Assembly: GCF_001420995.1 (NCBI RefSeq)
Contig: NZ_CP012184.1
Location: 4,882,501-4,946,500 of the forward strand
DNA from: Pseudonocardia sp. EC080619-01
Lineage (GTDB): Bacteria; Actinomycetota; Actinomycetes; Mycobacteriales; Pseudonocardiaceae
DNA: 64,000 nt
Direction of reading: 5' to 3'
The translations under genes and the position numbers were made by a program. Positions 10,009-31,940 of this stretch are shown here, in pieces. How positions within the stretch are numbered: the stretch's first letter is position 1; each line of letters opens with the position of its first letter. The notes beneath the pieces are model-generated. The model did no database searches. It worked only from the letters and a program-made list of their open reading frames with translations, and was not told the DNA's origin.

Positions 10009-10016
10009 GGTGATGG

Positions 10017-10088
<72 letters not shown>

Positions 10089-10089
10089 G

Positions 10090-10161
10090 AGGCGGCGGCG
10101 GGAATCGAACCCGCGTACAGGGCTTTGCAGGCCCTTGCCTAAGCCACTCGGCCACGCCGCC
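10090..10161 (-). tRNA. tRNA-Cys(GCA), copy 1
   Basis: A 72-base cloverleaf: acceptor GGCGGCG/CGCCGCC, anticodon loop CTGCAAA (GCA), discriminator T. It differs from copy 2 by a compensated C-G to A-T change in the acceptor stem. Confidence 0.97.
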
Positions 10162-10192
10162 GGACACCCGGCCCGTGTACGAGACCCGGCTG

Positions 10193-10265
10193 AGCGGACG
10201 ACGGGACTCGAACCCGCGACCCTCACCTTGGCAAGGTGATGCGCTACCAGCTGCGCTACGTCCGC
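10193..10265 (-). tRNA. tRNA-Gly(GCC), copy 1 of the tandem sets
   Basis: A 73-base cloverleaf with anticodon GCC. It is the first gene of the set in the direction of transcription, 31 bp before tRNA-Cys. Confidence 0.97.
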
Positions 10266-10414
10266 ATTCGTACCGTTCCCGTGGCGTTTCCGCTCGTTCC
10301 CGGTGCGTTGGGAGAACAGTAGCGCACGGTCCGTGGCGGTCCACGAGGGGGGTGGGGTAGTGGAGTGTCCGCGTCGCGGGGGCGCGGCGGGCGTCGCCGG
10401 GGCCGGAAACGACA

Positions 10415-10443
10415 GAATCCCCGGGCCGGCGGCCCGGGGATTC
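10415..10443 (-). terminator. Terminator of the second tRNA set
   Basis: A perfect 13-bp stem (GAATCCCCGGGCC with GGCCCGGGGATTC) with a three-base loop, nine bases after tRNA-Val copy 2. It is a near copy of the hairpin at 9975-10008, so the terminator was duplicated with the tRNAs. Confidence 0.8.
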
Positions 10444-10452
10444 CGGTGATGG

Positions 10453-10524
<72 letters not shown>

Positions 10525-10525
10525 G

Positions 10526-10597
10526 AGGCGGAGGCGGGAATCGAACCCGCGTACAGGGCTTTGCAGGCCCTTGCCTAAGCCACTCGGCCACTCCGCC
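10526..10597 (-). tRNA. tRNA-Cys(GCA), copy 2
   Basis: A 72-base cloverleaf with anticodon GCA. The acceptor stem is GGCGGAG/CTCCGCC, while copy 1 has GGCGGCG/CGCCGCC: one base pair changed on both sides, so pairing is kept. Confidence 0.97.
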
Positions 10598-10647
10598 AGA
10601 GTCTGGCTGACTCTGCAGGAAGGTCCCGGCTCAGGGCCGATCCTCCG

Positions 10648-10720
10648 AGCGGACGACGGGACTCGAACCCGCGACCCTCACCTTGGCAAGGTGATGCGCT
10701 ACCAGCTGCGCTACGTCCGC
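10648..10720 (-). tRNA. tRNA-Gly(GCC), copy 2 of the tandem sets
   Basis: A 73-base cloverleaf with anticodon GCC, identical to the other two Gly genes in the window. It is first in its set, 50 bp before tRNA-Cys copy 2. Confidence 0.97.
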
Positions 10721-24734: not shown

Positions 24735-24896
24735 ATGACCACCACCGAGAAGCCGTCCAACTCCAGCATCGATATCTCCGACGTCGTCGCACTGGTCAAC
24801 ACCGAGGAGGTGGAGGACTCCGCTATTCGGGTCGACCGTCTTCTCACGGATCAGAGTGTCAACCGCCAGCCGATGAACATGGTTGCATTCGACTAA
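24735..24896 (+). CDS. RiPP precursor-like peptide
   Basis: An ATG at 24735, with GGAG about eight bases upstream, opens a 53-residue frame. The N-terminal part is hydrophilic with many Thr, Ser, Glu and Asp (MTTTEKPSNSSIDISDVV), then an acidic helix-like 'NTEEVEDSAIRVDRLLTD', then a distinct C-terminal stretch 'QSVNRQPMNMVAFD' ending in Asp. Size, a leader-like acidic first part and a short compositionally different tail are what RiPP precursors look like. It lies 37 bp before the HExxH gene and on the same strand as the cupin-like and exporter genes. There is no Cys, so lanthionine or sactipeptide chemistry is excluded; hydroxylation of Asn, Asp, Gln, Pro or Val in the tail is conceivable. 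The peptide itself belongs to no family I know. Confidence 0.65.
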   Translation: MTTTEKPSNSSIDISDVVALVNTEEVEDSAIRVDRLLTDQSVNRQPMNMVAFD

Positions 24897-24933
24897 TCGG
24901 CGATACGAGGTTCGAGAGGAAGCGAGGAGCTGG

Positions 24934-25827
24934 ATGTACTATCTTTACGGTGACGACGAGATCATCCAGAATGTCTTCCGTTTGTCGCGCTCAGGTAACA
25001 CAGGGGCGGTGACCACCCTTGGCGACCTGCGAGAGCAGTACCTCCGCTTCCTCTCGGACCCTCGCTTCGAGGCGCCAGTCAACCACTCCGATGATGTGTT
25101 CATCACTGACCCGGCGACGGCCGATGCGATCGCCCGTGCGTACTCGGGGGGTAACCTGAACGACCTCGATCAGAGCACGATCATCGGTGACGCGTTCACG
25201 CCTGAGGAGCACGCGAAGCGTATCGCACAAGTACGCCCAGCGATCGATCGAATTGCAGATCGGGATGCCACTCTGCATGCGATGTTTGAGCTAGTGATCC
25301 ACTCGATCTTCATCAAGAAGACAAACCGTGTCAGCGACGGATCCGCCGCGCACGGTGGCTCGTCGAGCAATGCGATCGGGTCCATCTGGCTCTCGCTGAA
25401 CGACGATCTGTCGACCGATGACATCTGCGAGCTGCTCATTCACGAGCTAACTCATCACCTCCTGTTTATCGACGAATATTGCCATTACCACTTCGAGTAC
25501 TCACTCATCGGCGAACCCGCAAATTTCGCACAGTCCGCTATTCGGAAAAGCAAGCGACCGCTCGACAAGGTCGTCCATAGCATCGTCGTCGCCGCAGAGC
25601 TGGTCAGCGCGCGCTCTGCGATACTGGATGAGGGCGCCTGCACCCCCCGGAAGGTTCATCCTGATACCCCTACAGTAATCAGCGCAACGATCGACGCTTG
25701 CGACAGCGTCCTCGCACTTTCGAACCTGCCTGAGCTGGTGTCAGATCGGACCGTCGATCTGGTTAATCGGTCGAAGCGTAGATGTCTCGACGCGCGCTCA
25801 GCTACTGCTCTCGTGGAGGAGGCGTGA
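24934..25827 (+). CDS. HExxH-motif protein, putative RiPP peptide-modifying enzyme
   Basis: A 297-residue protein; the ATG at 24934 has GAGGAG five bases upstream. 'LLIHELTHHLLFIDE' (residues 167-181) is an HExxH metal site, and 'KRPLDKVVHSIVVAAELVSA' (residues 207-226) holds a further His (215) in the position where peptide-modifying HExxH proteins have a third ligand after an 'RP' pair. 'AIGSIWLSLNDDLSTDD' just before is also typical of that family, whose characterised members are iron- and 2-oxoglutarate-dependent peptide beta-hydroxylases in RiPP clusters. The alternative is a zinc metalloprotease that trims the leader. The adjacent precursor-like peptide strongly favours an action on that peptide. 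Codon use is less GC-biased than neighbours, a sign of transfer. Confidence 0.7.
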   Translation: MYYLYGDDEIIQNVFRLSRSGNTGAVTTLGDLREQYLRFLSDPRFEAPVNHSDDVFITDPATADAIARAYSGGNLNDLDQSTIIGDAFTPEEHAKRIAQVRPAIDRIADRDATLHAMFELVIHSIFIKKTNRVSDGSAAHGGSSSNAIGSIWLSLNDDLSTDDICELLIHELTHHLLFIDEYCHYHFEYSLIGEPANFAQSAIRKSKRPLDKVVHSIVVAAELVSARSAILDEGACTPRKVHPDTPTVISATIDACDSVLALSNLPELVSDRTVDLVNRSKRRCLDARSATALVEEA

Positions 25828-25829
25828 CG

Positions 25830-25997
25830 ATGGCTATCCCTGAGTATGATGCGCTGGTGGAATGCGCCGAGCGCATCAGCAACGAATGAGGACGCAGCGG
25901 GCGAGACCTCGATGATTTCCCGGAAATCGTATTAGATCTTACCCGCAACCTTGATCTCAGGTACTTTGGCGACCTCACGAACCTGTACCGGGTCGGC
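25830..25997 (+). other. 5' part of the cupin-like gene, interrupted by in-frame TGA
   Basis: An ATG at 25830, two bases after the HExxH stop, opens a frame reading 'MAIPEYDALVECAERISNE', then TGA (25887-25889), then 37 more coding-like codons ('DLDDFPEIVLDLTRNLDLRY', then 'FGDLTNLYRVG') leading without a shift into the gene at 25998. The whole frame 25830-26924 would be 364 codons. This looks like a nonsense mutation (CGA or GGA to TGA) or a sequencing error. No in-frame ATG or GTG lies between the TGA and 25998, so a shortened product would start at 25998. Confidence 0.6.
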
Positions 25998-26924
25998 ATG
26001 GATCCTGCCGTGGGTGATCTCCAGCAGCCTTCGACGTTTTCCGACTTGTATTTCAAGCTATATGACGATGGTCACTACTGGGTGGAAGTCCTTAACTGGT
26101 GGGCCAGTGATCTGAATATCCACGACCACGATTTCTCCGGTGTACAGTTTCAGCTATCGGGCAAGTCACTGGATGTCACCTTCAAGTTCCAGGGTGACGA
26201 CATTCAGGAAGGTGTGCAGCCGGGGCGATTTGATATCAACCAGGCGACAGTCTGGACTCCGGGGACTGCATCAGTTGTTCTGCCAGGTGACGCCGCGCCG
26301 CACTCTGTCTGCCATCTGAACCTGCCTACCGTCAGCCTTCTCTTCCGCACCTATCCGGTGGCCGAGCTCGGGCCCCAACGCAACTACTTCCCGCCGGATG
26401 TGCGTGGCAGCTACAAGGTGGCGACGACGGCGATGCGAACTCGCCTGAAGATCATGCGCATGCTCTCACGGTCTGACCCGGATGCATTTCGCGAGGCGTT
26501 CCGGGGCACTACACAGGGCCAGACTGTGCAGGCAAACTTGTTCACCGTTATCAAGATGACCGACATCCTGTTCACTCCGCAGTATTCTGCGCTGCTGGCA
26601 GAGTTGGCGAGTAGCGATGTCCTGCTCGGTGATGTTGTTGTGAACGCGGGAGCGCACTACCGATCAACAGATTTTCTTAAGGCCCTCATGAAGGAGCGGC
26701 CGGGATCTGGCAGCCTCGGGGATGGCTCGGTCAGCATCGCGGCACTGGCCAGCAGCTGGGACGAGCACAGCCTCAACATGATCCTCAGTCAACTGTCGGA
26801 TGCGGGGTGGAAGACCGATGTCGGTGGGGCGCTCAGTCGAGCAGTCGGCGACGGCTCACTCGCCGGCGCAGGCGACGCCGACCGGATCCTCAGACGGTAC
26901 GGGCTCACGATGGCCGACGTGTAA
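25998..26924 (+). CDS. Cupin-like protein of the RiPP-like locus
   Basis: As read from the first in-frame ATG after the TGA, 308 residues. 'NWWASDLNIHDHDFSGVQF' (about residues 33-51) with His42 and His44, 'VLPGDAAPHSVCHLNLPTV' (about 94-112) with His102 and His106, and a beta-rich stretch between them look like the two half-motifs of a cupin metal site; the usual Glu is replaced by Gln in 'GVQFQLSG'. A helical C-terminal half (about 145-308) follows. It could be a second non-haem iron oxygenase or an auxiliary binding protein for the peptide. Family assignment is by motif only. If the 5' nonsense codon is real, the product lacks about 56 residues and may be inactive. Confidence 0.55.
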   Translation: MDPAVGDLQQPSTFSDLYFKLYDDGHYWVEVLNWWASDLNIHDHDFSGVQFQLSGKSLDVTFKFQGDDIQEGVQPGRFDINQATVWTPGTASVVLPGDAAPHSVCHLNLPTVSLLFRTYPVAELGPQRNYFPPDVRGSYKVATTAMRTRLKIMRMLSRSDPDAFREAFRGTTQGQTVQANLFTVIKMTDILFTPQYSALLAELASSDVLLGDVVVNAGAHYRSTDFLKALMKERPGSGSLGDGSVSIAALASSWDEHSLNMILSQLSDAGWKTDVGGALSRAVGDGSLAGAGDADRILRRYGLTMADV

Positions 26925-27031
26925 ACACCCGCCGAGGCCGAGCTGTTCCGCGTTGGCACGCGGTATCCGTGGCTCGGTTAGTATTCCAACTGAGCAAGGA
27001 GGCAAAGCGGCGTTAGGGCGGGGGCAGTGGC

Positions 27032-28261
27032 GTGCGATCGGCGATAGAAGTGCGCGTCGTCACGACGTCGGCCGCCACAAACCTCTCTGATGGGATTCTC
27101 AGGCTGGCCCTGCCTCTGTTGGCGATCCGCTCCGGAGCTAGCCCATTCGAGGTCTCCCTGCTGGTGGGTGCGCTGCTCGCTCCTTGGCTTCTGGGAAGCC
27201 TGCTGGCCGGCGTTGTCATCGATCGCTCACGCAAGTCTTCCCTGATCAGAGCGTCGAACGCGATTCGAGCGGTGGTGCTGGCCGGGCTACTGGTCGGCGT
27301 AGTGATGACCAGTGCTGCGCCACCACTGCCGCTGCTGCTCACAGTCGCTCTGATGTGTGGATTCTCGGAGATCTTCTCTGACCTCAGTGCGCAGAGCGCG
27401 GTCCCGCAGATCGTCTCGGACGAGCGTCTGGACTCTGTCTACGGAAGAGTCTCGGTAGTCCAGAACACCAGCAACACCCTCGTAGGTCCGGCATTGGGTG
27501 GGCTTCTGTTCAACTGGAGTCCACCAATGGCGCTGGTGTTCGTGATCGTGAGCTACCTGTCGGCAGTGGCCATCTTCCCCACGACCCCCGCGAGCGAACG
27601 CCGGGCAACTCGCGGTGTCGCGGCGTTTGCGAAGGAAGTCGGCGGTGGCTTGGCAGCCATCAGGGCCGACTCATGGCTGGTACGTGCCGTCACCGCTGTC
27701 GGTGCGATGAACTTCGCCTCCGGTGCCAGTCTGGCGGTCCTCGTCTCCTACGCGGTATCGGCGGAAGGGCTGAGACTCAGTAGCGTCGAGTACGGCCTCC
27801 TTCTTGGGTGCTCCGGCGTGGGCTCGGTCCTCGGCGGACTCCTCGTGAGTGGCGTGATCAAGCGGACCGGCGCAACCGCTGCTGTGATGATTGGTGCGCT
27901 CGCACTGACTGTGAACATCGGCGCGCCGTCAGTCTCCACGAATCCGTTCGTCATCGGAGCACTCATGCTCCTGTGCAGCGCAGCTGGCATGCTCTTCGCG
28001 ATCCAGGTGATATCCGCAAGGCAGCGGCGCGTCCCTGCCGACCTTCGAGGGCGTGTCAATGCCGCATTCCAGCTCGTCGGTCTAGGGTCTGCCCCACTCG
28101 GCGCGATCGCCGGTGGCGCGGCGGCATCACTCGTCGGGCAACGGCCGATCTTCATCCTGTTCGCCGCTGCTGCCGCCACCATCGTCCTTATCGCACGTCC
28201 CTGGAGACTGAACGAGGTCCCAGCGCCCAACGTCGAGACGATCGCCGACGAGAGCCGTTGA
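27032..28261 (+). CDS. MFS transporter, probable exporter
   Basis: A 409-residue protein with about twelve hydrophobic segments in two halves joined by a central loop near residues 185-205. 'GVVIDRSRKSSLIRASNAIR' (about 67-86) is the MFS loop 2-3 motif (G-x3-DR-x-R-R), 'GRVSVVQNTSNTLVGPALGG' (about 141-160) the motif C region of drug/H+ antiporters, and 'RVPADLRGRVNAAFQLVGLG' (about 334-353) the equivalent loop in the second half. Its place as the last gene of the RiPP-like set suggests it exports the mature product or provides self-protection. The GTG start is preceded by a GGGCGGGGG stretch; an AAGGAGG lies 29 bp upstream. Substrate is inference. Confidence 0.88.
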   Translation: MRSAIEVRVVTTSAATNLSDGILRLALPLLAIRSGASPFEVSLLVGALLAPWLLGSLLAGVVIDRSRKSSLIRASNAIRAVVLAGLLVGVVMTSAAPPLPLLLTVALMCGFSEIFSDLSAQSAVPQIVSDERLDSVYGRVSVVQNTSNTLVGPALGGLLFNWSPPMALVFVIVSYLSAVAIFPTTPASERRATRGVAAFAKEVGGGLAAIRADSWLVRAVTAVGAMNFASGASLAVLVSYAVSAEGLRLSSVEYGLLLGCSGVGSVLGGLLVSGVIKRTGATAAVMIGALALTVNIGAPSVSTNPFVIGALMLLCSAAGMLFAIQVISARQRRVPADLRGRVNAAFQLVGLGSAPLGAIAGGAAASLVGQRPIFILFAAAAATIVLIARPWRLNEVPAPNVETIADESR

Positions 28262-28289
28262 CCACGCACAGATTCGTTCGTGGCAGGTC

Positions 28290-28343
28290 GAGCAGGCACG
28301 GGCGGAGGCCCGTGTCGCCGGAGCCCACGGCCCCTGCCTGCTC
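28290..28343 (+). terminator. Compound hairpin after the MFS gene
   Basis: GAGCAGGCA (28290-28298) pairs with TGCCTGCTC (28335-28343), and inside it CACGGGC (28297-28303) pairs with GCCCGTG (28308-28314) around a GGAG loop. It starts 28 bp after the exporter stop, so it likely ends the RiPP-like operon. Confidence 0.55.
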
Positions 28344-28388
28344 AACTTGTGCTGGCGGTTGGTCTGCGGCGCCGTCGTGATGCTGGCC

Positions 28389-29448: not shown

Positions 29449-29778
29449 ATGACTACTCCGAACTCCCCGCAGCCGACCCCCTACGAGCTGGCCCAGTGGC
29501 AGCAGTACCAGGCGTGGCAGCAGCACCAGGCCTGGCAGCAGCACCAGGCCGCCGCGCGTTCCGAGTCCGCCCGCAAGCTCGCCGGCTGGGCCATCGCCTG
29601 CGGCGGGCTCGGCTTGCTGGTGTTCGGCATCGTCCTCGGTCCGATCGCCTTCGCGCTGGGGCTCACCGCGTACAACCAGCTCCTGCCGGGGCAGCGCGGC
29701 AAGAACGACGCGGTCGGGGCGATGGTCCTCGGCGTGATCGACATCTTCGCGTTCTTCGTGATCATGGCGATGCTCTGA
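29449..29778 (+). CDS. DUF4190-like small membrane protein with WQQHQA repeats
   Basis: A 109-residue protein. Residues 14-35 are a Gln/Trp/His-rich tract of short tandem units ('QWQQYQAWQQHQAWQQHQA'), visible in the DNA as repeats of a 15-18-bp unit at 29491-29550. Two transmembrane helices follow (about residues 45-66, 'WAIACGGLGLLVFGIVLG', and 88-108, 'AMVLGVIDIFAFFVIMAML') separated by a short basic loop. This is the layout of DUF4190-type proteins, which have a Pro/Gln-rich cytoplasmic tail and two helices; function unknown. The ATG lies after a poor Shine-Dalgarno sequence. It stands alone. Confidence 0.75.
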   Translation: MTTPNSPQPTPYELAQWQQYQAWQQHQAWQQHQAAARSESARKLAGWAIACGGLGLLVFGIVLGPIAFALGLTAYNQLLPGQRGKNDAVGAMVLGVIDIFAFFVIMAML

Positions 29779-29890: not shown

Positions 29891-30901
29891 TCAGGGGGTG
29901 TCGATCGTCAGCCACTCCGCGCTCAGGGAGTCGAGGAAGTCCTGCGCGTCGAACGCCTCGCCGGGCGCCAGGACACCCCGCTCCTGCGCCCGGCCGTCCA
30001 ACAGTCGCACGACCGCCTCGACGAGGAGCGGCGCGGTGACCGCGTAGATGTCCCGGCCGGTCGCCGCGATGCGGCGGTCCTCCCGGCCGCGCCGGACGAC
30101 GACGTCGACCACGAACACCTGCGCCGAGCGCCTGTGCTCGTCGACGGCCTGCGGCGCCGAGGTCGCCGGATCACGGACGTCCCCGAGCGCGACCGAGGCC
30201 AGGTAGTTCTCGATCCGGGTCGCCGGCAGGTGGCGGGCCATCGTGACGATCTCGCTGAACGGCACACCGACCACGGTCTGCGTCCCGATCGGGGCCGGGA
30301 ACACCCATTCCCGTTCGGGGGCCGGAGCGGGTGCGGGGACCAGCTGCCCGCCGTCGACGACGAGCCGTGTGGCCGTGTTGCGCTCGCCGGTGATCCGCGT
30401 GCCCCTCGTCGGCCACCACCGGTCGAGGCCGATGCCGACGGTCACCGCGTCGATCGTGTCCCATCCCGTCGTCGCGGCGGTGGCGAGCAGGTCGGCCAGC
30501 CCGCCGTAGAACGACATCGCCGGCACCACCGCCACGTCCGGCGCGGCACCGGGGGCTCCGTACGCGTCGTACAGGCCCTGCACCGCAGCCTGCTCGGCCG
30601 CGACGTCCAGGTAGTGCGCTCCCGCGCGGACGGCGGCGTCCGCCAGCGGGCGGGCCGTGTCGAGGAACGGGCCGGCGACGTTCACGACCGCCGAGACCCC
30701 TCGTACTGCGGCGTCCAGCGCGGCCGGATCGTCGACCGACGCCGGCCGTACCTCCGACCCCGGGACCTGCGCCCCGAGCTCGTCCAGGGCCGTCGTGCTC
30801 CGTCCGGACAGGACGGGCACCAGGCCGCGCCGCACCAGTTCCGCGACCACGAACCGTCCCGTGTGGCCGTACGCCCCGTAGACCAGAACTCTGCTCTCCA
30901 T
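29891..30901 (-). CDS. Saccharopine dehydrogenase-like NAD(P)-binding protein
   Basis: A 336-residue protein. 'RVLVYGAYGHTGRFVVAELV' at the N-terminus is a Rossmann motif of the saccharopine dehydrogenase/trans-acting enoyl reductase type; 'SAVVNVAGPFLDTARPLADA' (about residues 70-89) and 'HYLDVAAEQAAVQGLYDAYG' (about 96-115) are characteristic of that group. The C-terminal half is specific to it. It probably reduces or oxidises a carbonyl or enoyl compound; a true lysine-pathway role is unlikely. It is divergent from the GlxA-type AraC regulator at 30972, 70 bp away, and is the best candidate for its target. Confidence 0.88.
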   Translation of the reverse strand: MESRVLVYGAYGHTGRFVVAELVRRGLVPVLSGRSTTALDELGAQVPGSEVRPASVDDPAALDAAVRGVSAVVNVAGPFLDTARPLADAAVRAGAHYLDVAAEQAAVQGLYDAYGAPGAAPDVAVVPAMSFYGGLADLLATAATTGWDTIDAVTVGIGLDRWWPTRGTRITGERNTATRLVVDGGQLVPAPAPAPEREWVFPAPIGTQTVVGVPFSEIVTMARHLPATRIENYLASVALGDVRDPATSAPQAVDEHRRSAQVFVVDVVVRRGREDRRIAATGRDIYAVTAPLLVEAVVRLLDGRAQERGVLAPGEAFDAQDFLDSLSAEWLTIDTP

Positions 30902-30971
30902 GCGTCCACCTCACCAGCGCAGAGGGGTTCGTTCGAGTGTCTGATCCGACGACGTACGTACACTTTCGGAC

Positions 30972-31940
30972 ATGCACACCCTGGGGCTCGCCCTCCACCA
31001 GGACTCGATGCTCTACGAGACGGCGATCGCGTCGGAGGTCTTCGGGGTCGACAGGTCCGAGCTGTCGGCGACGGGTGAGTGGTACGACGTCGTCGTCTGC
31101 ACCCCGAACGGGGTCGCCCCCGGCTGGTTCCCCGGCGCCGAGGTCCAGGACTTCGCAGCGCTGAGCCGGGTCGACACCGTCCTCGTCCCGTCCACGTCCG
31201 TTCTCGACCGCGAGCCGGACGCGGAGCTCCTTTCCGCCCTCCGGGCCGCGTACGAACGGGGCGCGCGGATCGCCGCCCTGTGCACCGGCTCGTTCGTGCT
31301 CGCGGCGGCCGGTCTGCTCGACGGCCGCCCGGCGACCACGCACTGGATGCACGCCGCCGAGCTCGCGGACCGTCATCCCCGTGTCGACGTGCGGGCGAAC
31401 GTCCTCTACGTCGACGACGGGCAGGTCCTCACGTCGGCGGGCAAGACCGCGGCACTCGACCTCTGCCTGCACCTCGTCCACCTCGACCACGGCACTGCCG
31501 CGGCGAACGGGCTGGCGCGCACGCTCGTCGTCCCGTCGCACCGCCCCGGCGGCCAGCAGCAGTTCATCGTCGCGCCGGCCGATCCCGTCGTGACCGACGA
31601 GCTCGCTGCGGCGCTGGACTGGGCGCGCACCCGTCTCGACCAGCCGATCACGGTGCAGGGGCTTGCCGATCGGGCCCGGCTCAGCAGCCGGCAGCTCGCC
31701 CGGCGGATGCTGGCCGAGCTCGGTGTCGCCCCGCTGACCTGGCTCCACGACCAGCGGATCCGCCGTGCGCAGGACCTCCTCGAACGTACCGGCGCCTCCG
31801 TGGAGGAGATCGCCACACGCTGCGGCATGGGCACCGCGGCGACGCTCCGGCGGCGGTTCCGGCACTCCCTCGGCGTCAGCCCGACGGCCTACCGGGCCGC
31901 CTTCCGGAGCTCCCACGAGCTCTGCCCGAGCCCCGGCTGA
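30972..31940 (+). CDS. GlxA-type AraC family transcriptional regulator (DJ-1/PfpI domain)
   Basis: A 322-residue regulator with two parts. Residues 1-170 form a DJ-1/PfpI-like domain ('ALCTGSFVLAAAGLLDGRPA' around Cys101 and 'TTHWMHAAELADRHPRVDV'), which in this group senses a ligand rather than acting as an enzyme. Residues about 215-315 are two AraC helix-turn-helices: 'ITVQGLADRARLSSRQLARR' and 'SVEEIATRCGMGTAATLRRR'. It probably activates the divergent saccharopine dehydrogenase-like gene. The palindromic ACGTACGT at 30953-30960 in the gap is a possible site. The gene ends 20 bp before the convergent TetR gene. Confidence 0.92.
   Translation: MHTLGLALHQDSMLYETAIASEVFGVDRSELSATGEWYDVVVCTPNGVAPGWFPGAEVQDFAALSRVDTVLVPSTSVLDREPDAELLSALRAAYERGARIAALCTGSFVLAAAGLLDGRPATTHWMHAAELADRHPRVDVRANVLYVDDGQVLTSAGKTAALDLCLHLVHLDHGTAAANGLARTLVVPSHRPGGQQQFIVAPADPVVTDELAAALDWARTRLDQPITVQGLADRARLSSRQLARRMLAELGVAPLTWLHDQRIRRAQDLLERTGASVEEIATRCGMGTAATLRRRFRHSLGVSPTAYRAAFRSSHELCPSPG

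Follow-up and report, generated by a model that had tools for sequence, protein, structure and literature searches.

A peptide gene, a probable HExxH oxygenase gene and an interrupted cupin-like gene in Pseudonocardia: probably an undescribed kind of RiPP-type operon

In this study we describe a compact set of four genes from Pseudonocardia sp. EC080619-01, whose genome comprises 7.2 Mb on three contigs. The genes lie within a stretch of 64,000 nucleotides (contig NZ_CP012184.1, forward-strand positions 4,882,501 to 4,946,500; hereafter termed "the window", with positions counted from its first letter), where a 53-codon peptide, a protein with an HExxH motif, a cupin-like frame and a transporter of the major facilitator superfamily (MFS) follow one another on the plus strand at 24735-28261. 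Since the same gene set with the same peptide tail recurs in distantly related bacteria, sequence comparison suggests that it probably represents an undescribed kind of pathway for a ribosomally synthesized and post-translationally modified peptide (RiPP). The features of the locus are:

24735..24896, plus strand: putative precursor peptide gene, 53 codons (translation; tail common to relatives)
24873-24893, plus strand: proposed C-terminal core MNMVAFD of the peptide (translation)
24934..25827, plus strand: probable HExxH oxygenase gene, TIGR04267 family, 297 codons (profile, fold match)
25441-25455, plus strand: HELTH codons of the HExxH gene (residues 170-174)
25576-25578, plus strand: H215 codon of the HExxH gene (translation)
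25830..26924, plus strand: cupin-like gene, interrupted (alignment with homologues)
25887..25889, plus strand: in-frame TGA at a Trp position conserved in homologues (alignment)
26121-26129, plus strand: HDH codons of the cupin-like gene (alignment)
26301-26303 and 26313-26315, plus strand: codons of the second His pair of the cupin-like gene (alignment)
27032..28261, plus strand: MFS transporter gene, probable exporter (PF07690, E 4.3e-24)
28284..28349, no strand assigned: inverted repeat 3' of the MFS gene (arms 28284-28308 and 28325-28349)

A preliminary description of this DNA had pointed to a 53-residue precursor-like peptide with an HExxH gene 37 bp downstream. Both open reading frames (ORFs) stand as drawn, and so does the less GC-rich island in which they were placed: the guanine-cytosine (GC) content is 57-66% in 1-kb segments across 24.0-28.5 kb versus 68-76% in most other segments of 15-40 kb, and at third codon positions it is 0.68-0.81 in the operon, whereas two flanking genes have values of 0.91 and 0.93. 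Candidate purine-rich ribosome-binding sequences precede the first three genes, coding for the peptide, the HExxH protein and the cupin-like protein. Two further elements were borne out in part. A cupin-like gene does begin two bases after the HExxH gene, its ATG at 25830 following the stop codon, but the frame is soon interrupted by a TGA; and the MFS gene is indeed followed by a hairpin-like inverted repeat (25-nt arms, 80% complementary), but a terminator scan called no site at this place. As had also been stated, no radical SAM, LanB/C, YcaO or peptidase family appeared in a Pfam scan of 22 selected ORFs of the window (15-37 kb), nor did MNIO or nitroreductase families; one AraC-type regulator among these ORFs bears a DJ-1/PfpI domain.

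HExxH is the classical zincin motif. In the window's HExxH protein it takes the form of the HELTH sequence, with the RP...H215 element noted earlier further downstream, and the product passes the model TIGR04267 (alpha-ketoglutarate (aKG)-HExxH-type peptide beta-hydroxylase) with 54.4 bits at a cutoff of 40. All 12 members of alignment A5, which includes the window's protein and leaves L056-L058 outside, match this model at E<=0.1 (best 2.7e-16), and H170, E171, H174, R208, H215, R227 and H242 are invariant in all 12. An AlphaFold2 model derived from six sequences reached a pLDDT (predicted local distance difference test) of 86.4. Its only PDB fold matches at E<=0.001 were 8s5f (four chains, ChlB HExxH domain, E 4.3e-8) and 22ob ("SjiH-Ni"); upon realignment, 8s5f gave a Z score of 21.6 and a root-mean-square deviation (rmsd) of 3.4 over 251 residues, 22ob a Z score of 18.2, and the next row 6.7. 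Sequence searches of the PDB with the HExxH and cupin-like profiles returned chance-level matches only, and the Pfam scan of the HExxH protein placed no protease family above threshold, with weak sub-threshold matches to DUF6782 and SprT-like. Profile and structural model thus point to a probable iron-dependent oxygenase, in agreement with the preliminary description, which had likened the product of 24934-25827 to the RiPP-associated peptide hydroxylases and proposed the profile search that now supports this. A viral source of the gene found no support: one viral_contigs scan (67 pattern matches) yielded no relative, and the searched protein (P0002) had no PHROG match at E<=1.

Fifteen HExxH loci were compared, namely the window, L002-L006, L020-L025 and L056-L058, which derive from Actinomycetota, Bdellovibrionota and proteobacterial metagenome-assembled genomes (MAGs). 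Five of them came from a survey in which each species was represented by a single genome: L002 from Nocardia fusca (HExxH protein of 49% identity), L004 from a MAG of the Bdellovibrionaceae, and L003, L005 and L006 from three MAGs of proteobacteria. The occurrence of the family was assessed by profile searches at E<=1e-20, for which large groups were represented by a sample of their genomes; in the order (397), phylum (396) and L004-phylum (368) samples, scoring was limited to six candidates per genome. The family was present in one of 62 genus, one of 397 order and one of 396 phylum genomes sampled, each time the window's own genome. It was likewise found in 1/148 genomes of the genus of L002, 1/250 of the family of L003 and 2/43 of the order of L005, as well as in 7/140 genomes of the order and 10/368 of the phylum of L004. 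Because of this rarity in the genus, order and phylum samples, together with the lower GC content overall and at third positions, the operon was probably acquired horizontally.

Directly 5' of the HExxH gene, a candidate small ORF is found in 14 of the 15 loci, and 11 of the 15 show the motif M[VIAL]AF[DN] near the end of the peptide; the N-terminal halves can be aligned too and share a common hydrophobic pattern. As a control, the motif was sought within the last 14 residues of every stop-to-stop frame of at least 20 residues that the window and 24 loci contain, which amounts to 7835 frames over 306 kb. The motif occurred in 11 of the 7835 frames, and all 11 are the peptides just upstream of HExxH genes, so that the recurrence of the tail beside these genes in other phyla appears to be more than chance. 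The preliminary description had allowed that homologues lacking a conserved upstream peptide, or a clear match to an unrelated protease family, would speak against it; the peptide counts just given and the Pfam scan go the other way. One HExxH homologue, L025:893-1744, is accompanied by neither a candidate precursor nor a cupin-like or ATP-binding cassette (ABC) gene; its neighbours, read by eye, are sugar-nucleotide-like, and it may have another role.

The cupin-like frame starts at ATG 25830 behind GGAGGAGG, runs for 19 codons to the in-frame TGA 25887-25889 and is then open to 26924; a cupin-like gene that is intact from ATG 25830 onwards is thereby excluded. The TGA takes the place of a Trp that is present in 15/15 other aligned cupin-like proteins, distant paralogues included, and also in the cut L003 copy. 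The first start codon beyond it is ATG 25998, 56 codons further on, with no clear ribosome-binding site in front. The residues H100, H102, H160 and H164 (L002 numbering) occur in 16/16 rows of the cupin-like alignment A8, which upholds the HxH and paired His of the preliminary description. We use the label "cupin-like" rather than cupin, because it rests on this histidine pattern: searches of Pfam and NCBIfam gave no match to a cupin model for any of seven family members or six paralogues, and the cupin-like family matches no model at all in either collection.

The TGA might have arisen recently as a nonsense mutation, might be an error in the sequence, or might go with a shorter product from ATG 25998; each of these is possible. 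Since it falls on a conserved Trp, the second enzyme of this genome may be non-functional or shortened, and the second step of the pathway may accordingly be lost or altered there. An account that we regard as possible, though short of probable, sees the locus of this genome as a remnant in decay, with a cupin-like pseudogene and no mature product, while the family works elsewhere; it is compatible with the explanation preferred below. Besides the conserved Trp, it could draw on the absence of a clear ribosome-binding site ahead of ATG 25998. It fits less well with the 344 open codons after the stop, which encode 40% identity to the Nocardia protein, retain all four invariant His and show operon-like third-position GC, or with the intact peptide, HExxH and MFS genes, and a sequence error is possible as well.

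In the order of L004, cupin-like matches below E 1e-170 were obtained in 4/140 genomes, all within the seven that have the HExxH gene, and ten weaker cupin-like places (E 7e-24 to 9e-13) had no HExxH gene in the stretches examined. Stand-alone cupin-like paralogues of ~340-360 residues with an HSHxFRGAF motif were noted at ten places in the same order (L046-L055, e.g., L048:5192-6247). No HExxH gene lies nearby in the stretches examined, the six paralogues scanned match no Pfam or NCBIfam family, and judged by sequence they are an unmodelled family of their own.

The cupin-like gene directly follows the HExxH gene in seven of the 15 loci (window, L002, L003, L004, L020, L021, L022; L003 being cut by a contig end). 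It is missing from the expected place in seven others, and the contig of L058 ends ~140 bases after the HExxH gene. The peptide ends exactly in M-x-M-[VI]-A-F-D in 7/7 loci with the cupin-like gene versus 0/6 peptides from loci without it, and the L058 peptide also has another end. The association (p 0.0003, for 7 versus 7 with L058 counted as gene-less and related rows treated as independent) is suggestive at the level of sequence. The neighbourhood comparison put forward in the preliminary description thus supports the upstream peptide in nearly all loci and finds the cupin-like gene next to the HExxH gene in the seven just named. Covariation of this kind has precedents: in pes clusters the Pro of the precursor is present only together with the HExxH gene (PMC13060819), and pbs clusters whose substrates lack a conserved Arg also lack a PbsQ homologue (PMC12257519).

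A transporter gene forms part of most layouts. MFS genes follow the cupin-like gene in the window and in L002, where the two products share 36.5% identity over 408 residues. In L004, L020, L021 and L022 the gene after the cupin-like gene codes for a membrane protein whose end resembles an ABC ATPase (46-48% identity to that of L004), and in L005, L006, L023 and L024 an ABC-like membrane protein lies directly 3' of the HExxH gene. For this comparison the contigs of L003 and L058 end too early, and in L056 and L057 the ORFs in the corresponding position were inspected by eye. The ATPase ends fall below the Pfam ABC_tran cutoff in all four ABC-like proteins scanned, including those of L004 (9887-11320) and L005 (8883-10238), which are possibly a divergent exporter family; the L024 protein passes SMC_N and AAA_21. 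After the ABC-like gene, L004 (11323-12354) and L020 (2535-3620) encode a protein of ~343-361 residues, 41% identical between the two loci. The L004 copy matched no Pfam family, and this protein might be a third pathway enzyme.

We consider it moderately probable that the operon belongs to an undescribed RiPP-type family, in which leader-guided oxidation by the HExxH enzyme would be followed by a cupin-like second step and by export. The ribosomal peptide would carry an N-terminal leader for recruiting the HExxH enzyme and, at its C-terminus, the brief core M-x-M-[VI]-A-F-D. As a putative Fe(II)/alpha-ketoglutarate oxygenase, this enzyme would oxidise M-[VI]-A-F-D, the part of the core common to most members, the likeliest reaction being beta-hydroxylation of Phe or Asp; the reactions of aKG-HExxH enzymes are at present not predictable (PMC13060819). 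In the window's subgroup, a cupin-like metal protein with four histidines might then act on the extra Met of M-x-M and/or on the terminal Asp. The product would leave through the MFS transporter, or through the ABC-like protein in the Gram-negative relatives, and since no peptidase was found nearby, the leader may be cut off by a housekeeping protease or retained. More tentatively, the cupin-like proteins could constitute an unmodelled class of RiPP metalloenzymes acting on Met or the C-terminal Asp of this core in partnership with a stand-alone HExxH oxygenase; a peptide of 40-53 residues plus two non-haem metal enzymes might then be enough, in actinomycetes as well as Bdellovibrionota. The loci compared support the minimal pathway of two metal proteins that the preliminary description had envisaged, but in this genome the frame of the second protein contains a stop.

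Several observations weigh against this interpretation. No product or activity is known for the locus: the genes, their order and conservation, the family and fold of the HExxH protein and the link between cupin-like gene and core are what the analysis shows, and the chemistry, the sequence of the steps, the export and the gene transfer are what we infer. The window's cupin-like gene is interrupted, and the cupin-like fold is unproven, with a poor structure prediction (pLDDT 43.5); for the HExxH protein, Foldseek's own alignment to 8s5f has an rmsd of 11.5. The full tail motif is missing from four of the 15 loci: L005 and L006 have MIAIQN, L023 has MLVLE (weak), and L025 is without a candidate upstream peptide, its neighbour genes, by eye, being not of this kind. 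On the HExxH tree the cupin label needs one change (65% of bootstrap trees, support 66/58), and the correlation therefore does not amount to seven independent observations; L005 and L006, without the cupin-like gene, are nearer the window than several loci having it, and the tree and tail-comparison counts place L058 among the gene-less loci despite its contig end. Finally, an empty insertion site was not demonstrated, as the stretches of two relatives gave no alignment to the window beyond positions 29903-31907 and one short distant piece.

The main rival to leader-guided oxidation, which we rank as unlikely, is that the HExxH enzyme cleaves the backbone oxidatively at the conserved Ala, discarding A-F-D and leaving a C-terminal amide, with the tail as a recognition follower. 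PflC and PosC, of the same enzyme class, cut at the Ala of a C-terminal ARMD without another protease (PMC12636437); the Ala of the tail is kept in 13/14 peptides here, and the variable residues after the Asp in L056, L057 and L058 would suit a discarded end. The peptides contain no ARMD, however, and wherever the cupin-like gene is present (seven loci) they terminate in precisely A-F-D, which suggests a role for the end as such. It is very improbable that the HExxH protein acts as a common zincin peptidase and trims a small peptide, e.g., a signal: its motif type, the sub-threshold Pfam matches and the proteolytic action of PflC without leader (PMC12636437) would accord with this, but the TIGR04267 score above cutoff, the Pfam scan and the fold matches, in which all listed rows other than 8s5f and 22ob have Z scores below 7, speak against a plain protease, a reading that we reject.

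Elsewhere in the window, a set of Val-Cys-Gly tRNA genes is present in two tandem copies (10014-10720), and an 18-base tandem repeat (three units, 29496-29549) encodes a Gln-rich segment of a protein whose DUF4190 match lies below threshold.

The system is very small, and the seven residues of its tail are strongly conserved. Its loci offer a natural experiment, in which two features of the tail accompany the presence of the second, unmodelled metal protein, so that the target residue of each enzyme is directly testable. They also add a candidate enzyme family and point to peptide products in Bdellovibrionota.

The literature searched, which leaves out most subscription papers, contained no description of this gene combination. 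Searches on mod_HExxH, SjiH and the tail motif found nothing relevant, those pairing HExxH or oxygenase, cupin and precursor peptide found only the biphenomycin-like paper, and PMC13252029 and PMC12452194 treat other systems. The HExxH enzyme class is already known; its combination with the cupin-like gene and this core is, in our judgement, undescribed. ChlB (PDB 8s5f), a fused radical SAM/aKG-HExxH RiPP enzyme (PMC12636437), resembles the window's enzyme in HExxH fold, TIGR04267 family and proposed peptide substrate, whereas the latter stands alone, with no radical SAM gene among the 22 scanned ORFs. In the pes cluster of the nitrilobacillins, HExxH presence likewise tracks one precursor residue, Pro, but the cluster also has an MNIO, an asparagine-synthetase-like enzyme and M16 peptidases (PMC13060819). 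The biphenomycin-type bpm and pbs clusters contain the cupin-like/JmjC hydroxylases BpmG and PbsQ, the latter tracking an Arg of the precursor, and bpm also has an HExxH enzyme, BpmH; they differ by an MNIO, an arginase, a B12 radical SAM enzyme and a TldD-type peptidase (PMC12257519), and the window's cupin-like family matches no Pfam model. The pfl and pos clusters of Pseudomonas share with the window a stand-alone HExxH enzyme, a small precursor whose fully conserved tail has Asp as its last residue, exporters and the lack of a nearby protease gene (PMC12636437, PMC7726476). They differ by a tail in which ARMD comes after Gln residues, by a leader of nitrile-hydratase-like type and by genes for an MNIO-nitroreductase and a GNAT protein; neither the ARMD tail nor, among the 22 scanned ORFs, an MNIO-nitroreductase gene was found, which sets the window apart from pfl/pos. 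In their stead, the window combines the M-x-M-[VI]-A-F-D tail, in the form MNMVAFD, with a cupin-like gene.

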